Below are positions 949-58,270 of a DNA stretch of 64,000 nt, one piece after another; within the stretch, counting starts at the first letter, position 1; the number at the start of each line of letters is the position of its first letter. Source of the stretch: Tetrapyrgos nigripes (taxonomy: Eukaryota; Basidiomycota; Agaricomycetes; Agaricales; Campanellaceae). The stretch covers positions 124,001 to 188,000 of the forward strand of contig JAACJM010000081.1 in assembly GCA_013368315.1 (NCBI GenBank), written 5' to 3'. The notes beneath the pieces are model-generated. The model had not been told where the DNA came from. It searched no databases and was given only the letters and a program-made list of their open reading frames with translations. The position numbers and the translations under genes were made by a program.

Positions 949-3218
949 TTATGTATGCAGCTGTGTCTCCTTGGCAAGGAGGAGCTTGACAATCTCCTTG
1001 CAATTGGGCCTTTGATGTACAAGTATCTGATGGGCTGCCCCATATTCAGCTGCCTGGAGGGCTGTCCCATATTTACCACCTGAAAGTGCTGTTTGAGTGT
1101 CATCTCCCTCTCTATCCAACCACATTCTCACCTTGAATGGTTGGGTCTGCCCCCTTGTCAAGCAGGAGCTTGACAATCTCCTTGTTTCCATTAGCTGAGA
1201 CTGCCTGAAGGGCTGTCCCATAATAACCACCTGAAAGTGCTCTTTGAATGTCATCTCTCTCTCTCTATCAAAACACATTCTCACCTTGAATGTTTGGGTC
1301 TGCCCCCTTGTCAAGCAGGAGCTGAACAATCTCCTTGTGTCCTCCATATGAGGTTGAAGCAGCCTGAATGGCTGTCCCATAATGACCACCTGAAGGTGCT
1401 CTTTGAGTGACATCTCCCTCTTTATCCAAATACATTCCCACCTTGAATGTTTGGGTCTGCCCCCTTGTCAAGCAGGAGCTCAACAATCTCCTTGTATCCT
1501 TCATATGAGGCTGCCTGAAGGGCAGTCCCATAATGACCACCTGAAAGTGCTCTTTGAGTGACATCTCCTTCATTCAAACACATGCTCACCTCGAATGTTT
1601 GGGTCTGCCCCCTTGTCAAATAGGAGCTGAACAAGCTCCTTGCGTAGATTATAAGGTGAGGCAAAAGAGTCATGAAGGACTGCTGCACAAAGGGCTGACC
1701 CATATTCACCACCTGAAAGTGCTTGGTGAGTGTCATCTCCTTCATCCAAATGCATTCTCACCTTGCATGTTTGGGTCTGCCCCCATGGCAAGAAGGAGCT
1801 CAATAATCTGCTTGAAACCTTGATATGAGGCTGCCTGAAGGGCTGTCCCATATTTACCACCTGAAAGTGCTCTCTGAGTGTCATCTCCCTCTTAATACAA
1901 ACACATTCTCACCTTGAATGTTTGGGTCTGCCCCCTTGTCAAGCAGGAGCTCAACAATCTCCTTGTGTCCTTGATATGAGGCTGCCTGAAGGGCTGTCCC
2001 ATATTCACCACCTGAAAGTGCTCTTTGAGTGTCATCTCCATCTTTATCCAGACACATTCTCACCTTGAATGTTTGTGTCTACCCCCTTGTCAAGCAGGAA
2101 CTCAACAATCTCCTTGTGTCCACTACACGAGGCTGCCTGAAGGGCTGTCCCATATTTACCACCTGGAAGTGTTCTTTGAGAGTCATCTCCCTCTTTATCC
2201 AAAGACATTCTCACCTTGAGTGGTTAGGTCTATCTCCTTGTCAAGCAGGAGCTCAACAATCTCCTTGTGTTGTCCATATGAGGCTGCCTGAAGGGCTGTC
2301 CCATATTTACCACCTGGAAGTGCTCTTTGAGTGACATCTCCTTCTTCATTCAAACACATTCTCACCTTGAATGTTTGGGTCTGCCCCCTTGTCAAGCAGA
2401 AGCTCAAAAATCTCCTTGTGTCCTCTATATGAGGCTGCCTGAAGGCATGTCCCATATTCACCACCTGAAAGTGCTCTTTAAGTGACATCTCCTTCCTCAT
2501 TTAAACACATTTTCACCTTGAATGTTTGTGTCTGCCCTCTTGTCAAGCAGGAGCTCAACAATATGCTTGGAACCTTTATATGAGGCTGCCTGAAGGGCTG
2601 TCTCATATTCACCACCTGAAAGTGCTCTTTGAATGTCATCTCCCTCTTTATCAAACACATTCTCACCTTGAATGTTTGGGTCTGCCCCCTTGTCAAGCAG
2701 GAGCTGAACAATCTCCTTGTCCCCTCCATAAGGGTTTGAAGCTGCCTGAAGGGCAGTCCCATAATGACCACCTGAAAGTGCTCTTTGAGTGACATCTCCT
2801 TCATCCAAACACATTCTCACCTTGAATGTTTGGGTTCTCCCCCTTGTTGAGCAGAAGCTCCACAATCTGCTTGGAACCTTTATATGAGGCTGCCTGAAGG
2901 GCTGTCTCATATTCACCACCTGAAAGTGCTCTTTGTGTGACATCTCCTTCCTCATTCAAACACATTCTCACCTTGAATATTTGGGTCTGCCCCCTTGTCA
3001 AGCAGGACCTCAACAACCTCCTTGTATCCTCTACCAGTGGCTGCCTGAAGTGCTGTCCCATATTTACCACCTGAAAGAATGCTTTAAGTGCCATCTTCTT
3101 CATTCAAGCACATTCTCACCTTGAATGTTTGGGTCTGCCCCCTTGTCAAGCAGGAGCTCAACAAACTCCCTGTTTCCATGATATGAAGCTAGTTGGAGGG
3201 CTGTCACACAGTCACATC
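949..3218 (-). repeat. Tandem array of one-repeat-per-exon ankyrin units (~150 bp exon+intron)
   Basis: Fifteen exon/intron units repeat with a period of about 150-155 bp. The 14 complete exons are 99 bp (11 of them), 105 bp (two, at 1285 and 2667) or 123 bp (at 1590), all multiples of three. They are bounded by phase-1 introns, so each exon is symmetric and starts within the Gly codon after ...NIQ. Introns are 49-54 bp, start GTGAGAATG and end CTTTCAG, and are nearly as similar to each other as the exons are. The array therefore grew by duplication of exon plus intron DNA, or is being homogenised by conversion. The last unit (949-1079) is degenerate and closes the frame. Confidence 0.88.
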
Positions 3219-11195: not shown

Positions 11196-11198
11196 TCA

Positions 11199-11282
11199 CA
11201 CTGGAGGCAAATCCCTGTAAATCATCTGCCATACAGAGGTATTACAGTGACCTTACAACAAGTCATTCAATAAGTAATCCAC
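11199..11282 (+). repeat. Left terminal inverted repeat of the 14.5 kb element
   Basis: 84 bp starting CACTGGAGGCAAATCCCTG and ending ...AAGTAATCCAC. It pairs with 25617-25700 with two mismatches: G/C in TTACAGTGACC and T/A in GACCTTACAAC. Confidence 0.92.
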
Positions 11283-11545
11283 CTTGTATTACAGAGGTAT
11301 TACAGAGAGAAGAATTTTCCAGAGCAATGCTGTAAGACTGCTGTAAGACAAGTTGTATTACAGGAACATTTCAGAGGCCAAATCCCTGTATATCTGGTGC
11401 CCTACATAGGGATTACAGCAAACTTACACCAAGCCATTCAACAAGTATTCTGCCTTGGATTACAGAAGTATTACAAAGAGAAGAAATTTTGGGAGCAATG
11501 CGGTAAGACTGCTGTAAGACAAGTTGGATTACAGGGACATTTCAG
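11205..11545 (+). repeat. Two tandem copies of a ~170 bp subterminal segment
   Basis: Copy 1 is 11205-11374 and copy 2 is 11375-11545. Both start AGGC(C)AAATCCCTGTA and end ACAG(G/A)ACATTTCAG, and both contain GCTGTAAGACAAGTTG and several GTATTACAGA-type words. They are clearly diverged (many substitutions), older than the near-identical terminal repeats. The right end of the element has no counterpart beyond its 84 bp repeat. Confidence 0.85.
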
Positions 11546-11611
11546 AGTGACATGGTGTCACAGTAATACATTAGGTAATACAGCCAAGAAATACAGAAGT
11601 ATTTCAGTGTG

Positions 11612-14600
11612 ACAAAAGTGCGCAGGTTGCGTCCAGAGTGCGGGCAGGTTGTGCCCAGGGTGCATGCAGGTTGCCTCCAGAGTGCGCACAGGTTGCGTCC
11701 AGAGTGCGTGCAGGTTGCGTCCAGAGTCCAGGGTGCGCGCAGGTTGCGTCCAGAGTGCATGCAGGTTGCCCCCAGAGTGCGCGCAGGTTGCGTCCAGGGT
11801 GCATGCAGGTTGCCTTCAGAGTGCGGGCAGGTTGCGTCCAGAGTGCGTGCAGGTTGCGTCCAGAGTGCGCGCAGGTTGCGTCCAGAGTGCATGCAAGTTG
11901 CGTCCAGATTGTGTGCAGGTTGTGTCCAGAGTGCGCGCAGGTTGCGTCCAGGGCAGAGTCCACAATGCATGCAGGTTGTGTGGTTGCGTCGAGAGTGCAC
12001 GCAAGTTGCATCCAGATTGTGTGCAGGTTGCGTCCAGAGTGCGTGCAGGTTGCGTCCAGAGTGCACGCAGGTTGCGTCCAGGGTGCGCGCAGGTTGCGTC
12101 CAGAGTGCGCGCAGGTTGCGTCCAGGGTGTGCGCAGGTTGCATCCAGAGGTCCAGGGTGCATGCAGATTGTGTCCAGGGTGTGTCCAGAGTGCGCGCAGG
12201 TTGCGTCCAGAGTGTGCGCAGGTTGCGTCCAGGGTGCGCGCAGGTTGCGTCGAGAGTGCACGCAGGTTGCGTCGAGAGTGCACGCAGGTTGCGCCCAGGG
12301 TGCGTCCAGAGTGCACGCAGGTTGCATCCAGAGTGTGCGCAGGTTGTGTCCAGAGTGCGCGCAGGTTGCGTCCAGAGTGCGTGCAGGTTGCATCCAGAGG
12401 TCCAGGGTGCACGCAGATTGCGTCCAGGGTGCGTCCAGAGTGCAGGCAGGTTGCGTCCAGAGTGCGGGCAGGTTGCGTCCAGAGTGCACACAAGTTGCGT
12501 CCAGATTGCGTGCAGGTTGCGTCCAGAGTGCGTTGCAGGTTGCCTCCAGAGTGCGCGCAGGTTGCGTCCAGAGTGCGTGCAGGTTGCGTCCAGAGTGCCT
12601 GCGGGTTGCGTCCAGAGTCCAGGGTGCGCGCAGGTTGCGTCCAGAGTGCGCGCAGGTTGCACCCAGAGTGCACACAGGTTGCGTCCAGGGTGCATGCAAG
12701 TTGCCTTCAGAGTGCGCGCAGGTTGCGTCCAGAGTGCATGCAGGTTGCGTCCAGAGTGCGTGCAGGTTGCGTCCAGAGTCCAGGGTGCACACAGGTTGCG
12801 TCCAGGGTGCATGCAGGTTGCCTTCAGAGTGCGCGCAGGTTGCGTCCAGAGTGCGTGCAGGTTGCGTCCAGAGTGCGTGCAAGTTGCGTCCAGATTGTGT
12901 GCAGGTTGCGTCCAGAGTGCGCGCAGGTTGCGTCCAGGGCAGAGTCCACAATGCATGCAGGTTGTGTGGTTGCATCCAGATTGTGCACAGGTTGCGTCCA
13001 GAGTGTGCACAGGTTGCGTCCAGAGTGTGGGCAGGTTGCGTCCAGGGTGCGCGGAGGTTGCGTCCAGAGTGCGCGCAGGTTGGGTCCAGGGTGCGTGCAG
13101 GTTGCGTCCAGAGTGCGCACAGGTTGCATCCAGAGTGCGCGCAGGTTGCATCCAGAGGTCCAGGGTACGTCCAGAGTGCGCGCAGGTTGCGTCCAGAGTG
13201 CACGCAGGTTGCGTCCAGGGTGCGCGCAGGTTGCATCCAGAGGTCCAGGGTGCGTCCAAAGTGCGTGCAGGTTGCGTCCAGAGTGCGCGCAGGTTGCGTC
13301 CAGAGTGCGCGCAGGTTGCGTCCAGAGTGCACGCAAGTTGCATCCAGAGGTCCAGGGTGCACGCAGATTGTGTTCAGGGTGCGTCCAGAGTGCGGGCAGG
13401 TTGCATCCAGGGTGCGCTGCACGCAGGTTGCGTCCAGGGTGCATGCAGGTTGCCTTCAGAGTGCACGCAGGTTGCGTCCAGAGTGCGTGCAGGTTGCGTC
13501 CAGAGTGCGTGCAGGTTGCGTCCAGAGTGCGTGCAGGTTGCGTCCAGAGTGCGTGCAGGTTGCGTCCAGAGTGCGTGCAGGTTGCGTCCAGAGTGCGTGC
13601 AGGTTGCGTCCAGAGTGCGTGCAGGTTGCGTCCAGAGTGCCTGCAGGTTGCGTCCAGAGTCCAGGGTGCGCGCAGGTTGCGTCCAGAGTGTGCGCAGGTT
13701 GCGTCCAGATTGCGTGCAGGTTGCGTCCAGATTGCGTGCAGGTAGCATCCAGAGTGCGCGCAGGTTGCGTCCAGAGTGCGTGCAGGTTGCGTCCAGAGTG
13801 CGCGCAGGTTGCATCCAGGGTGCGCGCAGGTTGTGTCCAGAGTGCGCACAGGTTGCGTCCAGGGTGCGCGCAGGTTGCATCCAGAGTGCGCGCAGGTTGT
13901 GTCCAGAGTGCGCACAGGTTGCGTCCAGAGTGCGCGCAGGTTGCATCCAGAGTGCGTCCAGAGTGCGCACAAGTTGTGTCCAGAGTGCACACAGGTTGCG
14001 TCCAGAGTGCGGGCAGGTTGCGTCCAGATTGCGCGCAGGTTGCGTCCAGATCGCGCGCAGGTAGCATCCAGAGTGCGCGCAGGTTGCGTCCAGAGTGCGT
14101 GCAGGTTGCGTCCAGAGTGCGCGCGGGTAGCATCCAGAGTGCGCGCAGGTTGCGTCCAGAGTGCGTGCAGGTTGCGTCCAGAGTGCGCGCAGGTTGCGTC
14201 CAGAGTGCGCGCAGGTTGCGTCCAGAGTGCGCGCAGGTTGCGTCCAGAGTGCGTGCAGGTTGCGTCCAGAGTGCGCACAGGTTGCGTCCAGGATGCGTGC
14301 AGGTTGCGTCCAGAGTGCGCGCAGGTTGCATCCAGGGTGCGCGCAGGTTGCGTCCAGAGTGCGTGCAGGTTGCATCCAGGGTGCGCGCAGGTTGCGTCCA
14401 GAGTGCGTGCAGGCTGCGTCCAGGGTGCATGCAGGTTGCGTCCAGAGTGTGCGCAGGTTGCGTCCAGAGTGCACACAGGTTGTGTCCAGAATGCGTGCAG
14501 GTTGCGTCCAGAGTGCGCGCAGGTTGCGTCCAGGGTGCATGCAGGTTGCCTCCAGAGTGCACGCAGGTTGCGTCCAGAGTGCGTGCAGGTTGCGTCCAGA

Positions 14601-17600
14601 GTCCAGGGTGCGCGCAGGTTGTGTCCAGAGTGCGCGCAGGTTACACCCAGAGTGCGCGCAGGTTGCGTCCAGGGTGCATGCAGGTTGCCTTCAGAGTGCA
14701 CGCAGGTTGCGTCCAGACCCCAGAGTGCGCGCAGGTTGCGTCCAGGGTGCATGCAGGTTGCCTCCAGAGTGCGCGCAGGTTGCGTCCAGAGTGCGTGCAG
14801 GTTGCGTCCGGTTGCATCCAGGGTGCGTCCAGAGTGCGCACAGGTTGCGTCCAGGGTGCATGCAGGTTGCCTTCAGAGTGCGCGCAGGGTGCACGCAGAT
14901 TGCGCACAGGTTGCGTCCAGAGTGCGCGCAGGTTGCATCCAGGGTGCGCGCAGGTTGCGTCCAGAGTGCGCGCAGGTTGCGTCCAGAGTGCGTGCAGGTT
15001 GCGTCCAGAGTGCGTGCAGGTTGCGTCCAGAGTCCAGGGTGCGCGCAGGTTGCATCCAGAGTGCGTGCAGGTTGCACCCAGAGTGCATGCAGGTTGTGTC
15101 CAGGGTGCATGCAGGTTGCCTTCAGAGTGCATGCAGGTTGCGTCCAGACTGCGTGCAGGTGGCATCCAGAGTGCGCACAGGTTGCGTCCAGAGTGTGTGC
15201 AGGTTGCGTCCAGAGTGCGCGCAGGTTGCGTCCAGAGTGCGCGCAGGTTGCGTCCAGAGTGTGCGCAGGTTGGGTCCAGGGTGCGCGCAGGTTAGGGGCA
15301 TTCTGGACACAACCTGTGCGCACTCTGGACGCACTCTGGACGGAACTTGCACGCACCCTGGACGCAACCTGTGCGCACTCTGGACGCAACCTGCGTGCAC
15401 TCTGGACGCAACCTGTGTGCACTCTGGACGCAACCTGCGCATACTCTGGACGCAACCTGCGCGCACTCTGAAGGCAACCTGCGCGCACTCCAGACACAAC
15501 CTGCGCGCACCCTGGATGCAACCTGCGCGCACTCTGGATGCAACCTGCGCGCACTCTGGACGCAACCTGCGTGCACTCTGGACCGCACTCTGGACGCAAC
15601 CTGCACGCACTCTGGACGCACCCTGGACCTCCGGATGCAACCTGCGTGCACCCTGGACCTCTGGATGCAACCTGCGCGCACTCTGGACGCAACCTGCATG
15701 CACCCTGGACGCAACCTGCGCGCACTCTGACGCAACCTGCGCGCACTCTGGACGCAACCTGCACGCACTCTGGACACAACCTGTGCACACTCTGGACGCA
15801 ACCACACACCCTGCATGCATCGTGGACTCTCCCCTGGACGCAACCTGCACGCACTCTGGACGCAACCTGCGCGCCCTCTGAAGGCAACTTGCATGCACCC
15901 TGGACGCAACCTGTGCGCACTCTGGAGGCAACCACATACCCTGCATGCATTGTGGACTCTCCCATGGACGCAACCTGCACCCAGAGCACGCGCAGGTTGC
16001 GTCCAGGGTGTGTGCAGGTTGCCTTCAAAGTGCACACAGGTTGCGTCCACGCAGGTTGCGTCCAAGCAGGTTGCGTCCACGCAGGTTGCGTCCACGCAGG
16101 TTGCGTCCAGAGTGTGTGCAGGTTGTGTCCAGAGTGCGCGCAGGTTGCGTCCAGGGTGCGCGCAGGTTAGGGGCATTCTGGACACAACCTGTGCGCACTC
16201 TGGACGCACTCTGGACGCAACTTGCACGCACCCTGGACGCAACCTGCGCGCACTCTGGACGCAACCTGCATGCACTCTGGACGCAACCTGCGCGCACTCT
16301 GGAGGCAACCTGCATGCACCCTGGACGCACCCTGCGCGCACTCTGGACGCAACCTGCGCGCACTCTGGACGCAACCTGCGCGCACTCTGGACGCAACCTG
16401 CGCGCACTCTGGACGCAACCTGCGCGCACTCTGGACACAACCTGCACGCACTCTGGACACAACCTGCGCGCACCCTGGACGCAACCTGCGCGCACTCTGG
16501 ACGCAACCTGCACGCACTCTGGACACAACCTGTGCGCACCCTGGACACAACCTGCGCGCACTCTGGACGCAACCTGCGCGCACCCTGGATGCAACCTGCA
16601 CGCACTCTGGACGCAACCTGCACGCATCCTGGACGCAACCTGTGCGCAATCTGCATGCACCCTGCGCGCCCTCTGAAGGCAACCTGCATGCACCCTGGAC
16701 GCAACCTGTGCGCACTCTGGAGTCCAGAGTGCGCGCAGGTTGTGTCCAGAGTGCGCACAGGTTGCGTCCAGGGTGCGCGCAGGTTGCATCCAGAGTGCGT
16801 CCAGAGTGCGCACAAGTTGTGTCCAGAGTGCACACAGGTTGCGTCCAGAGTGCGGGCAGGTTGCGTCCAGATTGCGCGCAGGTTCCGTCCAGATTGCGTG
16901 CAGGTAGCATCCAGAGTGCGCGCAGGTTGCGTCCAGAGTGCGTCCAGGGTGCGCGCAGGTTGCATCCAGAGTGCGTCCAGAGTGCGCACAAGTTGTGTCC
17001 AGAGTGCACACAGGTTGCGTCCAGAGTGCAGGCAGGTTGCGTCCAGATTGCGCGCAGGTTGCGTCCAGATTGCGCGCAGGTAGCATCCAGAGTGCGCGCA
17101 GGTTGCGTCCAGAGTGCGTGCAGGTTGCGTCCAGAGTGCGCGCGGGTAGCATCCAGAGTGCGCGCAGGTTGCGTCCAGAGTGCGTGCAGGTTGCGTCCAG
17201 AGTGCGCGCAGGTTGCGTCCAGAGTGCGCGCAGGTTGCGTCCAGAGTGCGTGCAGGTTGCGTCCAAAGTGCGCGCAGGTTGCATCCAGGGTGCGTGCAGG
17301 TTGTGTCCAGAGTGCGCACAGGTTGCGTCCAGGATGCGTGCAGGTTGCGTCCAGAGTGCGCGCAGGTTGCATCCAGGGTGCGCGCAGGTTGCGTCCAGAG
17401 TGCGTGCAGGTTGCATCCAGGGTGCGCGCAGGTTGCGTCCAGAGTGCGTGCAGGCTGCGTCCAGGGTGCACGCAGGTTGCGTCCAGAGTGCGCGCAGGTT
17501 GCGTCCAGAGTGCACACAGGTTGTGTCCAGAATGCGTGCAGGTTGCGTCCAGAGTGCGCGCAGGTTGCGTCCAGGGTGCATGCAGGTTGCCTCCAGAGTG

Positions 17601-20600
17601 CGCGCAGGTTGCGTCCAGAGTGCGTGCAGGTTGCGTCCGGTTGCATCCAGGGTGCGTCCAGAGTGCGCACAGGTTGCGTCCAGGGTGCATGCAGGTTGCC
17701 TTCAGAGTGCGCGCAGGGTGCACGCAGATTGCGCACAGGTTGCATCCAGGATGCGTGCAGAGTGCGCGCAGGTTGCATCCAGGGTGCGCGCAGGTTGCGT
17801 CCAGAGTGTGTGCAGGTTGCGTCCAGAGTGCGTGCAGGTTGCATCCAGAGTCCAGGGTGCGCGCAGGTTGCGTCCAGAGTGCGTGCAGGTTGCACCCAGA
17901 GTGCGCGCAGGTTGTGTCCAGGGTGCATGCAGGTTGCCTTCAGAGTGCATGCAGGTTGCGTCCAGACTGCGTGCAGGTGGCATCCAGAGTGCGCACAGGT
18001 TGCGTCCAGAGTGTGTGCAGGTTGCGTCCAGAGTGCGCGCAGGTTGCGTCCAGAGTGTGCGCAGGTTGGGTCCAGGGTGCGCGCAGGTTAGGGGCATTCT
18101 GGACACAACCTGTGCGCACTCTGGACGCACTCTGGACGGAACTTGCACGCACCCTGGACGCAACCTGTGCGCACTCTGGACGCAACCTGTGCGCACTCTG
18201 GACGCAACCTGCGTGCACTCTGGACGCAACCTGTGTGCACTCTGGACGCAACCTGCGCATACTCTGGACGCAACCTGCGCGCACTCTGAAGGCAACCTGC
18301 GCGCACTCCGGACACAACCTGCGCGCACCCTGGATGCAACCTGCGCGCACTCTGGATGCAACCTGCGCGCACTCTGGACGCAACCTGCGTGCACTCTGGA
18401 CCGCACTCTGGACGCAACCTGCACGCACTCTGGACGCACCCTGGACCTCTGGATGCAACCTGCGTGCACCCTGGACCTCTGGATGCAACCTGCGCGCACT
18501 CTGGACGCAACCTGCATGCACCCTGGACGCAACCTGCGCGCACTCTGACGCAACCTGCGCGCACTCTGGACGCAACCTGCACGCACTCTGGACACAACCT
18601 GTGCGCACTCTGGACGCAACCACACACCCTGCATGCATCGTGGACTCTCCCCTGGACGCAACCTGCACGCACTCTGGACGCAACCTGCGCGCCCTCTGAA
18701 GGCAACTTGCATGCACCCTGGACGCAACCTGTGCGCACTCTGGAGGCAACCACATACCCTGCATGCATTGTGGACTCTCCCATGGACGCAACCTGCACCC
18801 AGAGCACGCATGCAGGTTGCCTTCAGAGTGCATGCAGGTTGCGTCCAGACTGCGTGCAGGTGGCATCCAGAGTGCGCACAGGTTGCGTCCAGAGTGTGTG
18901 CAGGTTGCGTCCAGAGTGCGCGCAGGTTGCGTCCAGAGTGTGCGCAGGTTGGGTCCAGGGTGCGCGCAGGTTAGGGGCATTCTGGACACAACCTGTGCGC
19001 ACTCTGGACGCACTCTGGACGGAACTTGCACGCACCCTGGACGCAACCTGTGCGCACTCTGGACGCAACCTGTGTGCACTCTGGACGCAACCTGCGCATA
19101 CTCTGGACGCAACCTGCGCGCACTCTGAAGGCAACCTGCGCGCACTCCGGACACAACCTGTGCGCACCCTGGATGCAACCTGCGCGCACTCTGGACGCAC
19201 AACCTGCGTGCACTCTGGACCGCACTCTGGACGCAACCTGCACGCACTCTGGACGCACCCTGGACCTCTGGATGCAACCTGCGTGCACCCTGGACCTCTG
19301 GATGCAACCTGCGTGCACCCTGGACCTCTGGATGCAACCTGCGCGCACTCTGGACGCAACCTGCATGCACCCTGGACACAACCTGCGCGCACTCTGACGC
19401 AACCTGCGCGCACTCTGGACGCAACCTGCACGCACTCTGGACACAACCTGTGCGCACTCTGGACGCAACCACACACCCTGCATGCATCGTGGACTCTCCC
19501 CTGGACGCAACCTGCACGCACTCTGGACGCAACCTGCGCGCACTCTGAAGGCAACTTGCATGCACCCTGGACGCAACCTGTGCGCACTCTGGGTGCAACC
19601 TGCGCGCACTCTGGACACAACCTGCACGCACCCTGGACTCTGGACGCAACCTGCACGCACTCTGGACGCAACCTGCGCGCACCCTGGACGCAACCTGCGC
19701 GCACTCTGGACGCAACCTGCGCGCACCCTGGATGCAACCTGTGCGCACTCTGGACGCAACCTGCGTGTACTCTGGACGCAACCTGTGCGCACTCTGGAGG
19801 CAACCACACACCCTGCATGCATCGTGGACTCTCCCATGGACGCAACCTGCACCCAGAGCACGCGCAGGTTGCGTCCAGGGTGCGTGCAGGTTGCCTTCAG
19901 AGTGCACGCAGGTTGCGTCCACACAGGTTGCGTCCACGCAGGTTGCGTCCATGCAGGTTGCGTCCAGAGTGTGTGCAGGTTGTGTCCAGAGTGCGCACTC
20001 TGGACGCACTCTGGACGCAACTTGCACGCACCCTGGACGCAACCTGCGCGCACTCTGGACACAACCTGCACGCACTCTGGACGCAACCTGCGCACACTCT
20101 GGAGGCAACCTGCATGCACCCTGGACGCACCCTGCGCGCACTCTGGACGCAACCTGCACACACTCTGGACGCAACCTGCGCGCACTCTGGACGCAACCTG
20201 CGCGCACTCTGGACACAACCTGCGCGCACTCTGGACGCAACCTGCACGCACTCTGGACACAACCTGCACGCACTCTGGACACAACCTGTGCGCACCCTGG
20301 ACGCAACCTGCGCGCACTCTGGACACAACCTGCGCGCACTCTGGACGCAACCTGCACGCACTCTGGACACAACCTGCACGCACTCTGGACACAACCTGTG
20401 CGCACCCTGGACGCAACCTGCGCGCACTCTGGACGCAACCTGCACGCACTCTGGACACAACCTGCGCGCACCCTGGACACAACCTGCGCGCACTCTGGAC
20501 GCAACCTGCGCGCACCCTGGATGCAACCTGCACGCACTCTGGACGCAACCTGCACGCATCCTGGACGCAACCTGTGCGCAATCTGCGTGCACCCTGCGCG

Positions 20601-23600
20601 CACTCTGAAGGCAACCTGCATGCACCCTGGACGCAACCTGTGCGCACTCTGGACGCACCCTGGATGCAACCGGACGCAACCTGCACGCACTCTGGACACA
20701 ACCTGCGCGCACTCTGGAGGCAACCTGCATGCACCCTGGACGCAACCTGCACGCACTCTGGGGTCTGGACGCAACCTGCGTGCACTCTGAAGGCAACCTG
20801 CATGCACCCTGGACGCAACCTGCGCGCACTCTGGGTGTAACCTGCGCGCACTCTGGACGCAACCTGCGCGCACCCTGGACTCTGGACGCAACCTGCACGC
20901 ACTCTGGAGGCAACCTACATGCACCCTGGACGCAACCTGCGCGCACTCTGGACGCAACCTGCACGCATTCTGGACACAACCTGTGTGCACTCTGGACGCA
21001 ACCTGCGCGCACTCTGGACGCAACCTGCGTGCACCCTGGACGCAGCCTGCACGCACTCTGGACGCAACCTGCGCGCACCCTGGATGCAACCTGCACGCAC
21101 TCTGGACGCAACCTGCGCGCACCCTGGATGCAACCTGCGCGCACTCTGGACGCAACCTGTGCGCACTCTGGACACAACCTGTCTGGTCCAGGGTGCGCGC
21201 AGGTTAGGGGCATTCTGGACACAACCTGTGCGCACTCTGGACGCACTCTGGACGGAACTTGCACGCACCCTGGACGCAACCTGTGCGCACTCTGGACGCA
21301 ACCTGCGTGCACTCTGGACGCAACCTGTGTGCACTCTGGACGCAACCTGCGCGCACTCTGGACGCAACCTGCGTGCACCCTGGACGCAACCTGCGTGCAC
21401 CCTGGACGCAGCCTGCACGCACTCTGGACGCAACCTGCGCGCACCCTGGATGCAACCTGCACGCACTCTGGACGCAACCTGCGCGCAGTCTGGACGCAAC
21501 CTGCACGCATTCTGGACACAACCTGTGTGCACTCTGGACGCAACCTGCGCGCACTCTGGACGCAACCTGCACACACTCTGGACGCAACCTGCGCGCACTC
21601 TGGATGCAACCTGCGCGCACTCTGGACGCAACCTGCGCGCACTCTGGACACAATCTGCGCGCACTCTGGACGCAACCTGCACGCACTCTGGACACAACCT
21701 GCGCGCACCCTGGACGCAACCTGCGCGCACTCTGGACGCAACCTGCGCGCACCCTGGATGCAACCTGCACGCACTCTGGACGCAACCTGCACGCATCCTG
21801 GACGCAACCTGTGCGCACTCTGGACACAACCTGCACGCACCCTGGATGCAACCTGCGCGCACTCTGGACACAACCTGCACGCACTCTGGACGCAACCTGC
21901 GCGCACTCTGGAGGCAACCTGCATGCACCCTGGACGCAACCTGCGCGCACTCTGGACGCAACCACACACCCTGCATGCATCGTGGACTCTCCCATGGACG
22001 CAACCTGCACCCAGAGCGCGCGCAGGTTGCGTCCAGGGTGCATGCAGGTTGCCTTCAGAGTGCACGCAAGTTGCGTCCAGACTGCGTGCAGGTGGCGTCC
22101 AGATTGCGTGCAGGTTGCGTCCACAGTGTGTGCAGGTTGTGTCCAGAGTGCGCGCAGGTTGCGTCCAGGGTGCGCACAGGTTAGGGGCATTCTGGACACA
22201 ACCTGTGCGCACTCTGCACACACTCTGGACGCAACTTGCATGCACCCTGGACGCAACCTGTGCGCACCCTGGATGCAACCTGTGCGCACTCTGGACGCAA
22301 CCTGCGCGTACTCTGGACGCAACCTGTGCGCACTCTGGAGGCAACCTGCATGCACCCTGGACGCAACCTGCGCGCAATCTGGACGCAACCTGCGCGCACC
22401 CTGGACGCAACCTGTGCGCACTCTGGATGCAACCTGCGCACACTATGGACACAACCTGCGCACACTCTGCGTGCACTCTGGAGGCAACCTGTATGCACCC
22501 TGAACGCAACCTGCGTGCACTCTGGACGCAACCTGCACGCACCCTGGACTCTGGACGCAACCTCCACACACTCTGGACGCAACCTGCGCACGCTCTGGAC
22601 GCAACCTGCACGCACTCTGGAGGCAACCTGCATGCACCCTGGACACAACCTGCGCGCACTCTGGGCGCAACCTGTGTGCACTCTGGACGCAACCTGCACA
22701 CACTCGGGACGCAACCTGCGTGCACCCTGGACACAACCTGCGCGCACCCTGGACGCAACCTGCACGCACCCTGGACGCAACCTGCGCGCACTCTGGATGC
22801 AACCTGTGCACACTCTGGACGCTACCTGCACGCAATCTGGACGCAACCTGCGCACACTCTGGACGCAACTTGCGCGCACTCTGGATGCAACCACACACCC
22901 TGCATGCATCGTGGACTCTCCCCTGGACGCAACCTGCACGCACTCTGGACGCAACCTGCACGCACTCTGGACGCAACCTGCGTGCACTCTGAAGGCAACC
23001 TGCATGCACCCTGGACGCAACCTGCGCGCACTCTGGACGCAACCTGCGAGCACCCTGGACGCAACCTGCGCGCACTCTGGATGCAACCTGCGCGCACTCT
23101 GGACGCACCCTGCGCACACCCTGGACGCAACCTGTGCGGCACTCTGGATGCAACCTGTGCGCACTCTGAAGGCAACTTGCCTGCATGCATCGTGGACTCT
23201 GCCCTGGACGCAACCTGCGCGCACTCTGGATGCAACCTGCACGCACTCTGGACGCAACCTGCATGCACTCTGGATGCAACCTGCGCGCACTCTGAAGGCA
23301 ACCTGCATGCACCCTGGACACAACCTGTGCACACTCTGGGGGCAACCTGCGCGCACCCTGGACTCTGGACGCAACCTGCACGCACTCTGGACGCAACATG
23401 CATGCACTCTGGACGCAACCTGCACGCAATCTGGAGGCAACCTGCATGCACCCTGGACGCAACCTGCACGCATTCTGGACACAACCTGTGTGCGCTCTGG
23501 ACGCAACCTGCGCGCACTCTGGACGCAACCTGCGTGCACCCTGGACGCAGCCTGCACGCACTCTGGACGCAACCTGCGCGCACCCAGGATGCAACCTGCA

Positions 23601-25614
23601 CGCACTCTGGACGCAACCTGCATGCACCCTGGACGCAACCTGCGCGCAGTCTGGACGCAACCTGCACGCATTCTGGACACAACCTGTGTGCACTCGGATG
23701 CAACCTGCGCGCACTCTGGACGCAACCTGTGCGCACTCTGGACACAACCTGTCTGGACGCAACCTGCGTGCACTCTGAAGGCAACCTGCATGCACCCTGG
23801 ACGCAACCTGCGCGCACTCTGGACGCAACCTGCACGCAATCTGGACACAACCTGTGTGCACTCTGGACGCAACCTGCGCGCACTCTGGACGCAACCTGCA
23901 CACACTCTGGACGCAACCTGCGCGCACTCTGGATGCAACCTGCGCGCACTCTGGACGCAACCTGCGCGCACTCTGGACACAATCTGCGCGCACTCTGGAC
24001 GCAACCTGCACGCACTCTGGACACAACCTGCGCGCACCCTGGACGCAACCTGCGCGCACTCTGGACGCAACCTGCGCACACCCTGGATGCAACCTGCACG
24101 CACTCTGGACGCAACCTGCACGCATCCTGGACGCAACCTGTGCGCACTCTGGACACAACCTGCACGCACCCTGGATGCAACCTGCGCGCACTCTGGACAC
24201 AACCTGCACGCACTCTGGACGCAACCTGCGCGCACTCTGGAGGCAACCTGCATGCACCCTGGACGCAACCTGCGCGCACTCTGGACGCAACCACACACCC
24301 TGCATGCATCGTGGACTCTCCCATGGACGCAACCTGCACCCAGAGCGCGCGCAGGTTGCGTCCAGGGTGCATGCAGGTTGCCTTCAGAGTGCACGCAGGT
24401 TGCGTCCAGACTGCGTGCAGGTGGCGTCCAGAGTGCGTGCAGGTTGCGTCCAGAGTGTGTGCAGGTTGTGTCCAGAGTGCGCGCAGGTTGCGTCCAGGGT
24501 GCGCACAGGTTAGGGGCATTCTGGACACAACCTGTGCGCACTCTGCACACACTCTGGACGCAACTTGCATGCACCCTGGACGCAACCTGTGCGCACCCTG
24601 GATGCAACCTGTGCGCACTCTGGACGCAACCTGCGCGTACTCTGGATGCAACCTGTGCGCACTCTGGAGGCAACCTGCATGCACCCTGGACGCAACCTGC
24701 GCGCAATCTGGACGCAACCTGCGCGCACCCTGGACGCAACCTGTGCGCACTCTGGATGCAACCTGCGCACACTATGGACACAACCTGCGCGCACTCTGCG
24801 TGCACTCTGGAGGCAACCTGTATGCACCCTGAACGCAACCTGCGTGCACTCTGGACGCAACCTGCACGCACCCTGGACTCTGGACGCAACCTCCACACAC
24901 TCTGGACGCAACCTGCGCGCGCTCTGGACGCAACCTGCACGCACTCTGGAGGCAACCTGCATGCACCCTGGACACAACCTGTGTGCACTCTGGACGCAAC
25001 CTGCACACACTCGGGACGCAACCTGCGTGCACCCTGGACACAACCTGCGCGCACTCTGGACGCAACCTGCACGCACCCTGGACGCAACCTGCGCGCACTC
25101 TGGATGCAACCTGTGCACACTCTGGACGCTACCTGCACGCAATCTGGACGCAACCTGCGCGCACTCTGGATGCAACCACACACCCTGCATGCATCGTGGA
25201 CTCTCCCCTGGACGCAACCTGCACGCACTCTGGACGCAACCTGCACGCACTCTGGACGCAACCTGCGTGCACTCTGAAGGCAACCTGCATGCACCCTGGA
25301 CGCAACCTGCGCGCACTCTGGATGCAACCTGCGCGCACTCTGGACACACCCTGCGCACACCCTGGACGCAACCTGTGCGCACTCTGAAGGCAACTTGCCT
25401 GCATGCATCGTGGACTCTGCCCTGGACGCAACCTGCGCGCACTCTGGATGCAACCTGCACGCACTCTGGACGCAACCTGCATGCACTCTGGATGCAACCT
25501 GCGTGCACTCTGAAGGCAACCTGCATGCACCCTGGACGCGACCTGTGCACACTCTGGGGGCAACCTGCGCGCACCCTGGACTCTGGACGCAACCTGCACG
25601 CACTCTGGACGCAA
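11612..25614. repeat. 22 bp GC-rich minisatellite in alternating-orientation blocks
   Basis: The unit core is GCAGGTTGCGTCCAGAG followed by TGCGC/TGCGT, period 22 bp; 14.0 kb divided by 22 gives about 636 units. Plus-oriented blocks lie at about 11612-15294, 15985-16169, 16721-18090, 18805-18972, 19860-19996, 21186-21207, 22017-22182 and 24346-24512; the stretches between and after them (to 25614) are minus-oriented. Plus-to-minus joints share GCAGGTTAGGGGCATTCTGG (7 times). Most minus-to-plus joints share GACGCAACCTGCACCCAGAG (5 times). Because 22 is one more than a multiple of 3 and no frame of the unit has a stop, all six frames stay open for long distances with a 22-residue period; I do not regard these as genes. 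Variant units lacking 7 bp form 15 bp sub-arrays at 16047-16105 and 19911-19965. Confidence 0.95.
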
Positions 25615-25616
25615 CA

Positions 25617-25700
25617 GTGGATTACTTATTGAATGACTTGTTGTATGGTCAGTGTAATACCTCTGTATGGCAGATGATTTACAGGGATTTGCCTCCAGTG
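25617..25700 (-). repeat. Right terminal inverted repeat of the 14.5 kb element
   Basis: Reverse complement of the left terminal repeat with 82 of 84 positions identical. Ends ...GATTTGCCTCCAGTG, followed by the TCA duplication at 25701-25703. The minisatellite abuts its inner edge directly. Confidence 0.92.
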
Positions 25701-26178
25701 TCACGACCCAGGCCACCACCGTCGGCGTCCCGCAGACTGTCACTCCCACTTCTACAGTCACTGTTCCCGCAGGAACCGTGACCTCCACCATCACCGAAAC
25801 CTCCTCCGCGTCCATCACCACAACGGCAACTGACACTGTTACGACTACCCAGACCACCCATACAACAGCAAGCACTACCGTGCAGACAATGACAACGGTC
25901 ACAACAAGCCAGTTTTGCGTACCAGTTCACCAATCCCCAGCCGGGTACTTTCCCTGGTTGCAGTTATGGCACCTACTACAACGACTACGCACTCACCAAT
26001 GACCCCGGACCAAACAATGACTACGCTGGAGCTATCGACACCTGTTTGTCGTCGTACTATACTGTGTAACTGCGTTCGTCTTCCTCCAGTCGGGCACACT
26101 CACTTGCTACACTGTTCAGTTTTTGCATTGTATGAACCCACTGATTTTTCGGCGGGGTCCAGTATAATACCATCTTGA
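25701..26178 (+). pseudogene. 3' fragment of the broken Thr-rich secreted-protein gene
   Basis: Continues the 10846-11195 fragment after the transposon: VTTQATTVGVPQTVTPTSTV... through ...TTTQTTHTTASTTV, matching the intact gene's ATTVGVPQTVTPTTTVTVPAG region. Around 25905-25925 the frame shifts relative to the intact copy. In another frame the Cys-rich part reads YQFTNPQPGTFPGCSYGTYY and ...DYAGAIDTCLSSYY before a premature TAA near 26066, where bases have been lost compared with the intact TCLGSCYADRNTRGC segment. The end of the gene, ...TDFSAG.SIIPS then stop, is still recognisable at about 26140-26178. Confidence 0.85.
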
Positions 26179-43593: not shown

Positions 43594-44907
43594 TCAAGAT
43601 GGTATTATACTGAATCCTGCCGAAAAATCAGTGGGTTGGTCACAATGCAAATAAGAACCCCCTTGATTGAACGGGACGACAGAATTGTAGCAAGTGAGCG
43701 TGCCCGACTGGAGGAAGACGAACGCAGTTACACATCCGCGGGTGTTTCGGTCAGCATAGCACGACCCCAGACAGGTGTTGATAGCGTCCGCGTAGTCATT
43801 TTTTGATCCGGGGTCATTGGTGAGTACGTAGTCTCTGTATCTGGTGCCATAACTGCAACCAGGGAAAGTACCCGGCTGGGGATTGGTGAACTGGTACGCA
43901 ATGCCGGCTGTTTGGGACTGAGTGGCAGCAGTTGTCGTCGTCGTCGTTGTCGTCACGGTCGTGCTCGCTGTGGTGTGGGCTGTCTGGGTAGTCGTAACGG
44001 TGTCAGTTGCCGTCGTGGTGATGGATACGGAGGCGGTTTCGATGAGGTTGGAGGTGGAGGTCACGGTTCCTGCAGGAACAGTGACGGTAGTAGTGGGAGT
44101 GACAGTCTGCGGGACGCCGACGGTGGTGGCCTTGGTCGTGATAGCTGTGACAGTGGACGTCTGCACAGGCCCCAGGAAGCAATCGCACGCTGTCCTAGCG
44201 ACGTCAAGTGCAACCTTCTTGAGAGAGTTGGGGCATCCTGGGTAGACGTCGCTTAGGTTGGAGGAGCCACGTTTGACTGGGGTCACGGGGGAGTAGGTGT
44301 ATGTAATTCTGAAAGTACTTGTGAGCGTTTGAAGATGGATCAGAGGAAAATCGAAAACTCACATTTTCGAAGTATAAGTTGTAGTCGTTGAAGTAACAGT
44401 GGGCATATCAGTGAAGGTCGAATCGGTTTCGGTTGTATCGACGGTAAACGTCGTGGTGTCCGTAGAGGTGACGGTGGAAGTAATGGTCGCAGTACTGGTG
44501 GCCGTTTGTTGAACGGTGTTGGTATCAGAACTGACAGTGAGGGTGGCGGTTGATGCAGTCACGAAGCCAGTGCTGGTGCCGGTCTGAGCGACGGTGGTGC
44601 GTACCGTGGTGATCGGGTTAGCACCCGAACGGCCCAGGATTTTCATGCAAAGACGGTTGGCGTCCTTGTACTGACTGAGAGCGCCGTTGATCTGTGTGAT
44701 CAGGGAAGAACTGCAAGTCTTCGGGGATGCGCGTGTTGTGAGGTGCTGGAGTTGATCATGCACGCGTTGATCCTCAGGTGCCACGTTCAGGGCTGCGCGT
44801 CCTGCGAGGTGTTGGCGTTGATCCCGAGGTGCCACTCTCGGGGAAGCGACCAGGGCTGAAGCGTTGGAAACGAGGAGGACGAGTGGGAGAAGAGGGAGGA
44901 AATGCAT
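43594..44907 (-). CDS. Secreted Thr-rich protein with a Cys-rich C-terminal domain
   Basis: Two exons, 44907-44363 and 44308-43594, around a 54 bp GTGAG...TTTCAG intron; 1260 nt, 419 residues. The N-terminus MHFLPLLPLVLLVSNASA is a clear signal peptide. It is followed by two similar short blocks (RDQRQHLAGRA and DQLQHLTTRA), a Cys pair (TCSSS, LCMK), and long Thr/Ser/Val tracts such as STATITSTVTSTDTTTFTV and TTTTATDTVTTT that are probably O-glycosylated. The last ~100 residues hold seven Cys in GTFPGCSYGT, TCLGSCYADRNTRGC, LTCYN and HCDQ; the pattern resembles extracellular Cys-rich modules of fungal wall-associated proteins (WSC or PAN-like), but I cannot fix the family. There is no obvious GPI signal at the C-terminus (SIIPS). 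A role at the cell surface or in the wall is inference. A broken paralogue lies at 10846-26178. Confidence 0.82.
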
Positions 44908-54489: not shown

Positions 54490-54665
54490 TTTCTCTCTCT
54501 CGATCTCTCGTCTTCTTCATTGCTTGCTTTCGTTTCTTTTTTCCTCTCTTCTCTCTCTCGATCTCTCGTCTTCTTCATTGCTTGCTTTCTTTTCTTTTTT
54601 CCTCTCTTCTCTCTCTCGATCTCTTGTCTTCTTCGTTGCTTGCTTTCTTTTCTTTTTTCCTCTCC
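54490..54665 (+). repeat. 58 bp pyrimidine-rich minisatellite, three copies
   Basis: CGATCTCTCGTCTTCTTC-type units start at 54501, 54559 and 54617, an exact spacing of 58 bp, each ending in a C/T-only tract. One strand is almost pure pyrimidine, which explains the Lys/Arg/Glu-rich shadow ORF on the minus strand. Confidence 0.88.
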
Positions 54666-55429: not shown

Positions 55430-55665
55430 GTCTGAGTCAACCAAACCAACACTGAATCAACCAAAATTCCAAGTCTGATTCAACCCAGGCACACATCTGA
55501 TTCAACCTTGGTCCACAGTCTGATTTAACCCAGGCACACATCTAATTCAACCTTGGTCCACAGTCTGATTTAACCTGACTCAATTCTCGCATCACTCTGA
55601 TTCAACCCAGACCTAAGCTCTCATTTTACTGAATCAACCTGGACTTTCCACCACTCTAAGTCTGA
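55430..55665 (+). repeat. Cluster of TGATTCAACC motifs with a 45 bp tandem duplication
   Basis: About nine copies of a TGA(T/A)T(C/T)AACC-like 10-mer in 230 bp. Two successive 45 bp units (about 55477-55521 and 55522-55566) contain AACCCAGGCACACATCT and TTCAACCTTGGTCCACA. The same motif forms a larger cluster at 59.15-59.65 kb. Confidence 0.7.
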
Positions 55666-56385: not shown

Positions 56386-56416
56386 CAAATTATTATGAAG
56401 CTATTACAATGTATTA

Positions 56417-58052
56417 CAGTGGCCAAAAAAATTGTCCACATGTTTGGCACTTTTGGAAAGATTGCTGATTTAAGAGCTATTGAGCAGAAATCTCAAAACA
56501 TGGCTGGTGGTAGCAAGAAAGCCTTGGATTAGAGCTACAATAATCTGTCTGTTTTGTCTTATCTGGCCAAATATCTGTGGAGTTATGATTGATTTAAAAC
56601 TGTATGTCATTTGGACAATTTTTTGAGTTGCCACTTCAAAGTCATTATTGCAATAACCTGATGTGTTATACATGATGTCATGGGTGGAGCTGTACAGTAA
56701 TGTAATGTATACACTACAATGATGTCATAGCTGCCAGCTGGAGCATACATAGCAACATACAGATGCTCTACAGCCTCTATGAAAATCATGGGGTCCCTCA
56801 TATCAGCCCAGAAAGACAATCTCTACTCTCTCCTCTTAACTGCTTCTCCATCTGCAAAAATTGCAGCTCAGACTGGAGTATGGAAGCCAAGAGTTGCTTT
56901 TGTGGCTTAAAAGACAAATACAGACAATGAGAACAATACAGCAGGGTGTCCTAGAGGCTCTCTACTACTTGTGAAGAGGTTAGATTGGAAAAAAATCCAT
57001 TCTGGTAAAGCCAGATTGCTACACAAGTGGCCTGAAACATCAAGGCTCTTCTTGGACAACCTGTCCCAACCTATAACAGCCAAAACATTCCTGAAAACAT
57101 CTTGTGGCAATCTCCAAAACACAGAACAAGTGCAAACTTACAGTGACTTGCAGCAAGGTTCACTTGAAGTTTGCACAGATGTAAAAAGACCGGGCTGTAG
57201 AAGGCTGGAAGTGGGTTATTTGTTCAGATAAGACCAAAACCAATTATTTTGGGGCAAATATGCCCCAGCATGTGTGAGAAAAGAGAGATAAATTCATGGT
57301 ACAGCAAGATGTGACAGAAATGATGACATTTGAGAGAGAAAATGACATGATGGGGTAGGGTATGGGGCAACAGTAAGCAGTAAAAATGGTCCAGATGAAG
57401 GAGAAGATAGATTGCAAACACTATATGACCATCTTAAGTAACAAAATCCTGGAAAGCATTAATAATATGGGAGTTGATCCAGAGGTGGCCATTTTTCAGC
57501 TGGGTATTAACTTTCTAAAGTGCTATATCCAATGGTTTCCTTTATCAGAACATGTCTCTCTACCTATAAAAGCAACACTCTGCTTTCATACCTCAGTCTG
57601 AGCTGAAATTTTGATAGAGGGAGGGGCAGTTTGGAGGAGAGAGTAGAGATTGTCTTTCTGGGCTGATATGAGGGACCCCATGATTTTCATAGAAGCTGTA
57701 GAGCATCTGTATGTTGCTATGTATGCTCCAGCTGGCAGCTATGACATCATTCTGGTGTATACATCACATTACTGTACAGCTCCACCCATGACATCATGTA
57801 TAACACATCAGGTTATTGCAATAATGATTTTAAAGTGGCAACTCAAAAAATTGTCCAAATGACATACAATTTTAAATCAATCATAACTCCACAGATATGT
57901 GGCCAAATAAGACAAAACAGACAAATTATTGTAGCTCTAATCAAAGGCTTTCTTGCTACCACCAGCCATGTTTTGAGATTTCTGCTCAATAGCTCTTAAA
58001 TCAGCAATCTTTCCAAAAGTGCCAAACATGTGGACAATTTTTTTGGCCACTG
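56417..58052. mobile_element. Tc1/mariner-like element with ~420-470 bp inverted repeats
   Basis: Termini are CAGTGGCCAAAAAAATTGTC and its complement, with TA at 56415-56416 and 58053-58054. The left arm (56417 to about 56838, weaker to about 56892) is repeated inverted at about 57631-58052, so both arms encode the same shadow peptide (MSFWADMRDPMIF...). The middle (~700 bp) has only a short ORF (56971-57231, MKRLDWKKIHSG...) with no visible DDE/D motif. A non-autonomous element is the simplest reading. Flanking sequence is tandemly duplicated, giving an unoccupied copy of the insertion site at 58134-58270. Confidence 0.85.
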
Positions 58053-58270
58053 TATCTTGTATAAACATGCTAAGACATGTCCCTAATACCATCAATTGTT
58101 TGATATTCAAAGTTGACAAGTGCAAATGTTAAAACTACAATGAGTACAAATTATCTTGAAGTTATTGCAATGTATATCTTCCAGAAACATGCTAAGACAT
58201 GACCATAATACCACCAATCATAGTAACCAATCATTTGATATTCAAAGTTGACAAGTGCAAATGCTGGCAG
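58053..58270 (+). repeat. Tandem duplication preserving an empty insertion site
   Basis: Unit A is 56375-56416 joined to 58053-58133 (split by the Tc1-like element). Unit B, 58134 to about 58270, has the same order without the insertion: CTACAATGAGTACAAATTAT, ATTGCAATGTATATCTT, then AACATGCTAAGACATG and TTTGATATTCAAAGTTGACA. The site TGTATATCTT in B corresponds to TGTATTA|element|TATCTT in A. Confidence 0.78.

Follow-up and report, generated by a model that had tools for sequence, protein, structure and literature searches.

How does a stretch of nearly 14 kb of 22-bp repeats come to lie between the ends of a transposon, and does it travel with them? The question is raised by the window, the whole stretch of 64,000 nucleotides analysed here, which comes from Tetrapyrgos nigripes (placed by the NCBI taxonomy in the Campanellaceae, Agaricales) and corresponds to C80:124001-188000 in an assembly of 98.46 Mb and 587 contigs; C-numbers denote contigs of this assembly and L-numbers the loci fetched from it. 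A first-pass annotation of the window had described, at 11199-25700, a CACTA-like transposon whose interior has become a minisatellite, and had proposed that its 22-bp unit (the 22-mer) is an amplified subterminal binding motif and that the element serves as a mobile satellite seed. What lies there is a real mobile minisatellite, multicopy and of CACTA type; that the 22-mer originated as a subterminal motif is probably wrong, and satellite seeding is unsupported.

Borders and interior of the window copy

The outer ends of the window copy lie at 11199 (CACTGGAGGC) and 25700 (GCCTCCAGTG), giving a total length of 14,502 bp, and its outer 84 bp on the left and on the right are identical at 82 of 84 positions. 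The TCA at 11196-11198 is repeated at 25701-25703 as the target duplication. The gene interrupted by the insertion has a paralogue in the window: the left flank up to 11198 aligns to it up to 44139 with 88% identity, the right flank from 25701, aligned separately, matches it from 44141 with 77% identity, and the single TCA at 44139-44141 is the junction of both flanks, i.e., an uninterrupted site. A T. nigripes homologue of this paralogue, annotated as an Apple-domain protein, is 79% identical to it. No allelic counterpart of the insertion, empty or filled, turned up in the assembly; apart from its own locus, the left flank is matched best by the 88% paralogue. The 64,000 nucleotides of the window contain no N. 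The borders, the CACT termini (in full, CACTG), the TCA duplication and the paralogous empty site had all been claimed on first inspection and are borne out. The 84-bp inverted repeats stand as far as their identity is concerned, yet taking them as the complete inverted repeat has to be rejected, the terminal inverted repeat (TIR) measuring about 420 bp in other copies. On the right of the window copy the TIR is reduced to 84 bp joined directly to the array, and the remainder of the end is absent; the left end is full length and contains, at about +175 bp, a diverged second copy of its own terminus. Truncated on the right, this member of the family has perhaps lost its mobility. Its parts, with the uninterrupted site, are listed below.

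11196..11198, no strand: left target duplication TCA, from flank reading and the empty-site alignment
11199..11282, + strand: outer 84 bp of the left TIR, begins CACTGGAGGC, 82/84 against the right end
11199..11619, + strand: full left end, about 420 bp, type A, with two diverged units of about 175 bp and 11 CTGTAA/TTACAG motifs
11620..25615, no strand: 22-bp minisatellite array, consensus CAGGTTGCGTCCAGAGTGCGCG
11620..15293, + strand: first array block, + orientation
15298..16721, − strand: array block mainly −, with a short + block at 15981-16168
16722..18089, + strand: array block, + orientation
18094..25615, − strand: array mainly −, with short + blocks at 18812-18972, 19853-19992, 22011-22182 and 24340-24511
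25617..25700, − strand: right TIR, remaining outer 84 bp
25701..25703, no strand: right target duplication TCA, from flank reading and the empty-site alignment
44139..44141, − strand: paralogous uninterrupted site with one TCA, where the flanks abut

The description of the interior as almost nothing but a 22-bp repeat is accurate, since sequence of the 22-mer family makes up 13,698 of the 14,502 bp (94%). The array was parsed into 599 units (255 in + and 344 in − orientation), of which 176 are distinct. Orientation alternates in blocks, with many inversions, and a large part of the array is itself duplicated: 16723-19547, comprising a + block followed by mainly − blocks, is a 90% identical direct copy of 13880-16719. 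The parsing required a CA start and at most four substitutions in the first 14 bases, which biases absolute substitution rates; with this bias, transitions at the CpG positions of the unit reach 14% T at C8, 15% A at G9, 16% T at C19, 21% A at G20, 40% T at C21 and 11% A at G22, against mostly 1-2% at the C or G positions outside CpG (7, 11, 12, 14, 16 and 18), with positions 3 and 4 (9% A) as exceptions. This pattern suggests methylated, decaying CpGs in the repeat units. Open reading frames (ORFs) within the array reach 1,367 aa. They lie in several overlapping frames on both strands and are presumably not genes; their length would be explained by a 22-bp unit that rarely creates stops.

Elsewhere in the window, at 55468-55576, a short, AT-richer 22-bp tandem repeat shows weak similarity to the unit, with a local score of 17 against a mean of 7.0 (standard deviation 2.4, maximum 21) in 300 shuffles. 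It is possibly a distant relative of the minisatellite.

A multicopy family with variable arrays

The terminal repeats are not confined to this locus. With 40 of 267 candidates scored, the 84-bp end has at least 41 exact 84/84 matches genome-wide, the window's own included, and for its first 25 bp, when two mismatches are allowed, there are at least 100 forward and at least 100 reverse matches (i.e., at least 200), compared with 0 and 0 for the reversed control. The 100 ends listed can be joined into 36 convergent pairs, which are 1,531-17,259 bp long with a median of 4.6 kb and a mean of 5.9 kb, and 28 remain unpaired; among adjacent listed ends no more than 30 kb apart, the order is +− in 36 cases and different in 4. 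A rough estimate is that the family numbers about 100 copies and, at the mean pair length, occupies about 0.6 Mb.

Eleven copies, the window's included, were delimited end to end. They represent ten sites, L061 and L066, on two contigs, having the same target duplication, flanks 98.6-99.5% identical and an identical interior. All eleven carry the array, in lengths of 922, 922, 1,351, 1,376, 2,798, 2,897, 3,656, 5,664, 6,526, 7,294 and 13,698 bp, which amounts to 49-94% of element length; the ten copies other than the window's measure 1.8-8.1 kb in all. A twelfth copy (L064, on C30) has an array and two ends, the right one 88% alike. A search with the TIR yielded 30 end loci, and in all of them the 22-mer lies at most 1.6 kb inside the end; for 22 the distance from terminus to array is 411-447 bp. 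The check proposed by the first-pass annotation, insertions sharing these ends but differing in array length, is thus borne out (0.9-13.7 kb), and its picture of one element converted internally into a minisatellite gives way to a family with the array in all eleven delimited copies and inside all 30 fetched ends.

Conversely, the array was looked for apart from the ends. A query of three units gave 368 matches (40 of 506 candidates scored), and on 25 of the 25 contigs among the matches listed a family end faces the array, as compared by eye from tables. The consensus, with up to four substitutions, has 0 matches in the window outside the element, in ten loci of the transposase gene tnp2, in ten KDZ transposase loci and in a 12.5-kb sister element described below. 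Among the matches listed, the 22-mer therefore appears to travel only as transposon cargo. Among these matches no array was found outside an element of the family, and neither the free arrays expected of satellite DNA nor the role of satellite seed is seen on these 25 contigs. Two pairs of contigs (C138:84248 with C250:110161, and C237 with C380) have flanks 98.6-100% identical around the same insertion, which suggests recent duplications, or haplotypes retained in the assembly.

Target duplications of 3 bp are exact at 12 of 15 sites: TCA in the window, CGT in C237 (the same insertion as in C380), TAG in C209, TGG in C7, TGA at C6:72781, CCA at C6:958643, ATA in C74, TTA in C146, TAT in C230, TAA in C138, ATA in C71 and ACT around the inner copy of C22.

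The family TIR is about 420 bp long and occurs in two forms. In type A, as at the left end of the window copy, the array starts after about 422 bp, and type B has roughly 200-300 bp of additional AT-rich sequence before the array; this comparison left out matches shorter than 60 bp and matches in the L073 array. In a tree of the ends, branches group by type A or B, with 2 changes where shuffling gives 9.0, few branches being well supported and the bootstrap not settled. Each 420-bp end of the delimited copies holds 10-13 CTGTAA/TTACAG motifs, against 0-2 in the interior; the exception is the right side of the window copy, with one in its final 420 bp, where the end is missing. A motif concentrated in this way is what the subterminal repeats of CACTA elements would lead one to expect (PMC8978399). 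It is not contained in the 22-mer. The repeated subterminal motif of the family is thus CTGTAA/TTACAG, and the 22-mer, which the first-pass annotation had taken for such a motif in amplified form, is judged from these sequences probably not to be one.

Over 42 ends the median difference is 2.4% and the largest 22.7%; this set omits 9 of the 30 end loci, whose ends were already present as whole elements, and takes one end from the window copy. Within single copies, ten of which were compared, the divergence between left and right end is 0-0.5% for five and 1.9-4.6% for five, a result to be expected were one end occasionally copied onto the other by repair or exchange. The ends hold two units of about 175 bp, and the 22-mer blocks inside the ends stand in opposite orientation on the two sides in several copies. 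Foldback elements have long inverted repeats that are themselves made of tandem repeats; here the 22-mer blocks of the two sides do not form one symmetrical repeat.

With ends cut off, the best interior match of at least 300 bp has an identity of 81.0-92.7% in every one of the 54 pairs of copies from different sites, against a median of 97.6% (93.7-100%) for the inner 331 bp of the left ends of the same copies. Unit identity is 0.80 within copies, 0.79 between copies and 0.83 between neighbours. Because interiors diverge more than ends, and units are as alike between copies as within them, we infer a pool of variants that would be older than the dispersal of the copies, and arrays that would reshuffle faster than ends mutate. 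The array patterns would fit slippage, template switching during gap repair and unequal exchange. Two copies on C33 (C33:4213-8425 and C33:54302-58211), which measure 4,213 and 3,910 bp and have right flanks 95% identical over 1.5 kb, suggest by this flank comparison a segmental duplication.

Class assignment and the tnp2 sister family

In print (PMC12730594), fungal EnSpm elements are recognised by CAC..GTG termini and 3-bp duplications, Zisupton by 8-bp duplications and Plavaka by TGT..ACA or CATCA..TGATG termini. The family has CAC..GTG termini (CACTGGAGGC..GCCTCCAGTG) and 3-bp duplications at the sites given above, as in EnSpm/CACTA; it lacks both the 8-bp duplication of KDZ (Zisupton/Kyakuja/Dileera) and, with CACTG..CAGTG, the Plavaka termini. 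The initial assignment to a CACTA-like class is therefore upheld.

A relative with a transposase, which the first-pass annotation had called for, is found in a sister family; one pair with the family's own ends is a candidate, known from match positions. The sister element, 12.5 kb in length (L072:824 to L073:3316, C22:397123-409616), is nested in a family copy on C22. Its first 12 bp are identical to those of the family (CACTGGAGGCAA), other sister members differing at one or two, and it has CACTGGAGGCAAGCTCATGGG ends, inverted ends of about 177 bp that are 91% identical, and an ATA duplication. It contains a Transposase_21 (tnp2) stretch scoring 33.1 bits against a cut-off of 28.6, or 24.4 bits for one frame alone. 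Of ten ORFs of C22 scanned against Pfam, one matched Transposase_21 (E 2e-5, which falls short of the curated cut-off), two RVT_2 and one an integrase core, and six had no family. When two mismatches are allowed, the 26-bp sister terminus is found 86 times; 17 occurrences are exact, and many others read CACTGGAGGCG or CACTGGGGGC. Out of 74 tnp2 matches, 28 have at least 50% identity to the sister gene; for 22 of these 28 a sister end pointing inward lies no more than 20 kb away, against an expectation of 0.5, nine having one on both sides, and six have none. Because tnp2 matches adjoin sister ends so much more often than expected, these termini can be assigned to tnp2 elements.

The sister element also contains a Copia-like RVT_2 fragment, and a 353-aa frame (L072:4885-5943) with 109 genome matches and no Pfam family. 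A protein search with this frame gave five matches, four in Dendrothele bispora (one named as a GCM-domain protein) and one unnamed, which tells nothing about the window copy; the frame is possibly a second gene of the sister CACTA elements.

The candidate with the family's own ends is the pair C34:14467-29856, 15.4 kb long and exact over the first 25 bp at both ends, inside which, from match positions, a tnp2 match covers residues 18-539 of the 570-aa query at 44% identity. At its right end a 22-mer block of about 230 bp is followed by about 500 bp and then by an acidic reading frame, of 69 aa, which has no Pfam family and matched only itself in the genome. This arrangement leaves room for a weaker version of the motif idea, in which the 22-mer could have sat beside a gene in a coding ancestor. 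Another pair, C22:396692-419948, was rejected as an autonomous copy: its tnp2 lies in the nested 12.5-kb sister element, a second family copy (ACT duplication) has inserted close to its right end, and its outer flanks, AGA and GAA, do not match. Derivation of the 22-mer from tnp2, as in Chenopodium, was likewise rejected on the 0 matches in the ten tnp2 loci and the sister element. In two further contigs a tnp2 match stops 1-2 bases before a family end (C270:37256-38641 beside C270:38643, and C472:3-896 beside C472:898), and both matches start at residue 72 of the query; the family has apparently inserted into the transposase gene of another CACTA element, as seen in these two related contigs. 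KDZ transposase genes are abundant in the assembly, with 173 matches (best E 4e-55).

Origin of the array and comparison with known systems

The window copy is very probably a non-autonomous member of the EnSpm/CACTA superfamily, its ends and minisatellite cargo being moved by a tnp2-type transposase from elsewhere and its array being altered by repair or exchange. A transposase supplied in this way would recognise the ends of about 420 bp by their CACTG terminus and CTGTAA-rich subterminal repeats, excise the element and reinsert it with a 3-bp target duplication irrespective of the DNA between the ends, and the 22-bp minisatellite would move along as cargo. During or after such moves the array would grow, shrink and flip blockwise, most likely by template slippage in gap repair and by exchange between repeats, and the outcome would be closely similar ends around arrays of 0.9 to 13.7 kb. 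We infer both the mobilisation in trans and, from the array patterns, the mechanism of array change.

Several points weigh against this reading. The window copy, without most of its right end, may no longer move, and neither an excision product nor a polymorphic insertion came to light. Three of the 15 sites lack an exact duplication, namely C33:4213-8425 (ATG/CTG), the outer pair of C22 (AGA/GAA) and C30 (TCA/AAG), the last being L064, which was counted here although not delimited and whose pairing is unsure given the 88% likeness of its right end. The comparisons of ends are biased towards similarity, most ends having been fetched as best 84-bp matches. As to the transposase, reading of elements with family ends yielded no intact tnp2 gene, the eleven delimited copies being ends and array; the C34 match contains two in-frame TGA codons (intron or decay), and a single PF02992 match out of 117 falling inside the 36 pairs, compared by eye from tables, is not significant alone, 0.25 being expected. 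The slippage and gap-repair step is read from pattern only.

The alternatives concern mostly what the array is and where it came from. That the whole is an assembly artefact, the 14-kb array having been wrongly joined, collapsed or expanded, is barely credible: long tandem arrays are difficult to assemble, and the array length of the window copy may be inexact, but the exact target duplication, the paralogous empty site and the lack of any N in the window oppose it, as do the ten further copies delimited, which are built alike. It is highly improbable that the element belongs to KDZ or Plavaka and is CACTA-like at its termini only. The abundance of KDZ genes and a KDZ match at C37:394778-395167 inside the pair C37:383130-400388 (among the matches listed, compared by eye) would speak for it, yet about 0.4 such matches are expected by chance in 36 pairs by our own arithmetic, the duplications are of 3 bp rather than the 8 bp of Zisupton, Plavaka termini are CATCA or TGT (PMC12730594), and a tnp2 element in the same genome has the identical 12 terminal bases. 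The idea that the 22-mer is an amplified subterminal binding motif of the element's own protein, the array still being a protein-loading platform with long arrays selected, is quite unlikely. It draws on the near-constant start of the array in 22 of 30 ends and on C34, which alone among the 36 pairs has a PF02992 match and in which the 22-mer block lies between a coding-looking stretch and the right end; it is opposed by the different repeated motif that the ends possess, by the lack of a 22-mer match in the sister coding element and by the occurrence of the 22-mer in both orientations relative to the ends.

Two further possibilities bear on history more than on structure. The minisatellite may have existed beforehand and been captured by the transposon, so that the array would be foreign DNA, which is a rival on origin and not on present behaviour and is possible though doubtful. 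Since the 22-mer is unmatched in the sister coding element and the ten tnp2 loci, it was acquired or arose de novo at some time, and the weakly similar repeat at 55468-55576 also favours capture; on the other hand, no free array was found, all 25 contigs among the matches listed carry family ends, and the 22-mer is present in 30 of 30 end loci, 22 times starting at nearly the same position. If it was captured, this was probably a single capture by the founder. Unlikely too is a self-contained mobile minisatellite, in which the 22-mer would initially have been a short cis-acting block beside a gene, of the C34 type, and would have become the body of the element after loss of the gene, retained because it helps (it may, for example, serve as a CpG-rich methylation sink or as a chromatin platform spacing the ends) and changing in length with each repair of an excision gap. 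Were this true, the family would be a natural case of minisatellite growth coupled to transposition.

The reading as a trans-mobilised CACTA element finds partial parallels in print. Fungal EnSpm/CACTA elements (PMC1636069, PMC12730594) share the CAC..GTG termini, the 3-bp duplication, subterminal repeats over several hundred bp and the tnp2/Transposase_21 gene, which here is in the sister elements; they are described there by their transposase genes, whereas the present copies consist of ends and array. A CACTA-like element of Chenopodium quinoa likewise carries a tandem array, a 5,550-bp array of a 171-bp monomer in an element of 16,523 bp that is also found on three other scaffolds (PMC8978399). 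The quinoa element keeps coding sequence, with the array near its 3′ end, while in T. nigripes the array replaces the coding region; a related species has a similar array unlinked to CACTA, in contrast to the 22-mer, which was not found outside the family among the matches listed. Jozin, also CACTA-like and from Chenopodium, is linked to a short repeat of about 40 bp (PMC7320549), but the Jozin monomer comes from a piece of tnp2 and makes up the major satellite family there, and the 22-mer is unmatched in ten tnp2 loci. The Tetris foldback element of Drosophila virilis (PMC4079207) resembles the family in being apparently non-autonomous, with long inverted ends and internal tandem repeats, and has been proposed as a source of satellites; its repeats of about 220 bp lie within the inverted repeats and form satellite-like arrays of kb size, unlike the 22-bp repeats between the ends here, for which no free arrays were found. 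Finally, BrickBuilt, a miniature inverted-repeat transposable element of Porphyromonas gingivalis (PMC4596501), is a small inverted-repeat element whose body is a 23-nt minisatellite, but it is bacterial, with 19 copies in strain ATCC 33277, against a eukaryotic CACTA-type element with ends of about 420 bp and a length of up to 14.5 kb.

The closest printed cases found are thus plant CACTA elements with an array beside genes, and no fungal example was found among the titles and abstracts listed from the open-licence literature. What is new is the extreme fungal form, in which the array replaces the coding region, is present in every delimited copy and, among the matches listed, is found only with family ends. 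Copies of a cut-and-paste transposon can evidently be little more than ends and a tandem array, and minisatellites can spread by transposition, beyond growth by local slippage. With an estimated 100 or so copies, similar ends and a roughly fifteenfold range of array length in the copies read, the family makes it possible to address whether arrays change at transposition or between transpositions.

The window holds three other repeats. A 487-bp inverted repeat (56415-56901 and 57568-58054), 94.7% identical, flanks some 670 bp and has the look of a further mobile element. A 151-bp unit repeated in tandem about 14 times, with 75% matches, occupies 1049-3173 and possibly represents a repeat-containing gene, and at 54491-54664 a pyrimidine-rich unit of 58 bp is present in three copies with 97% matches.

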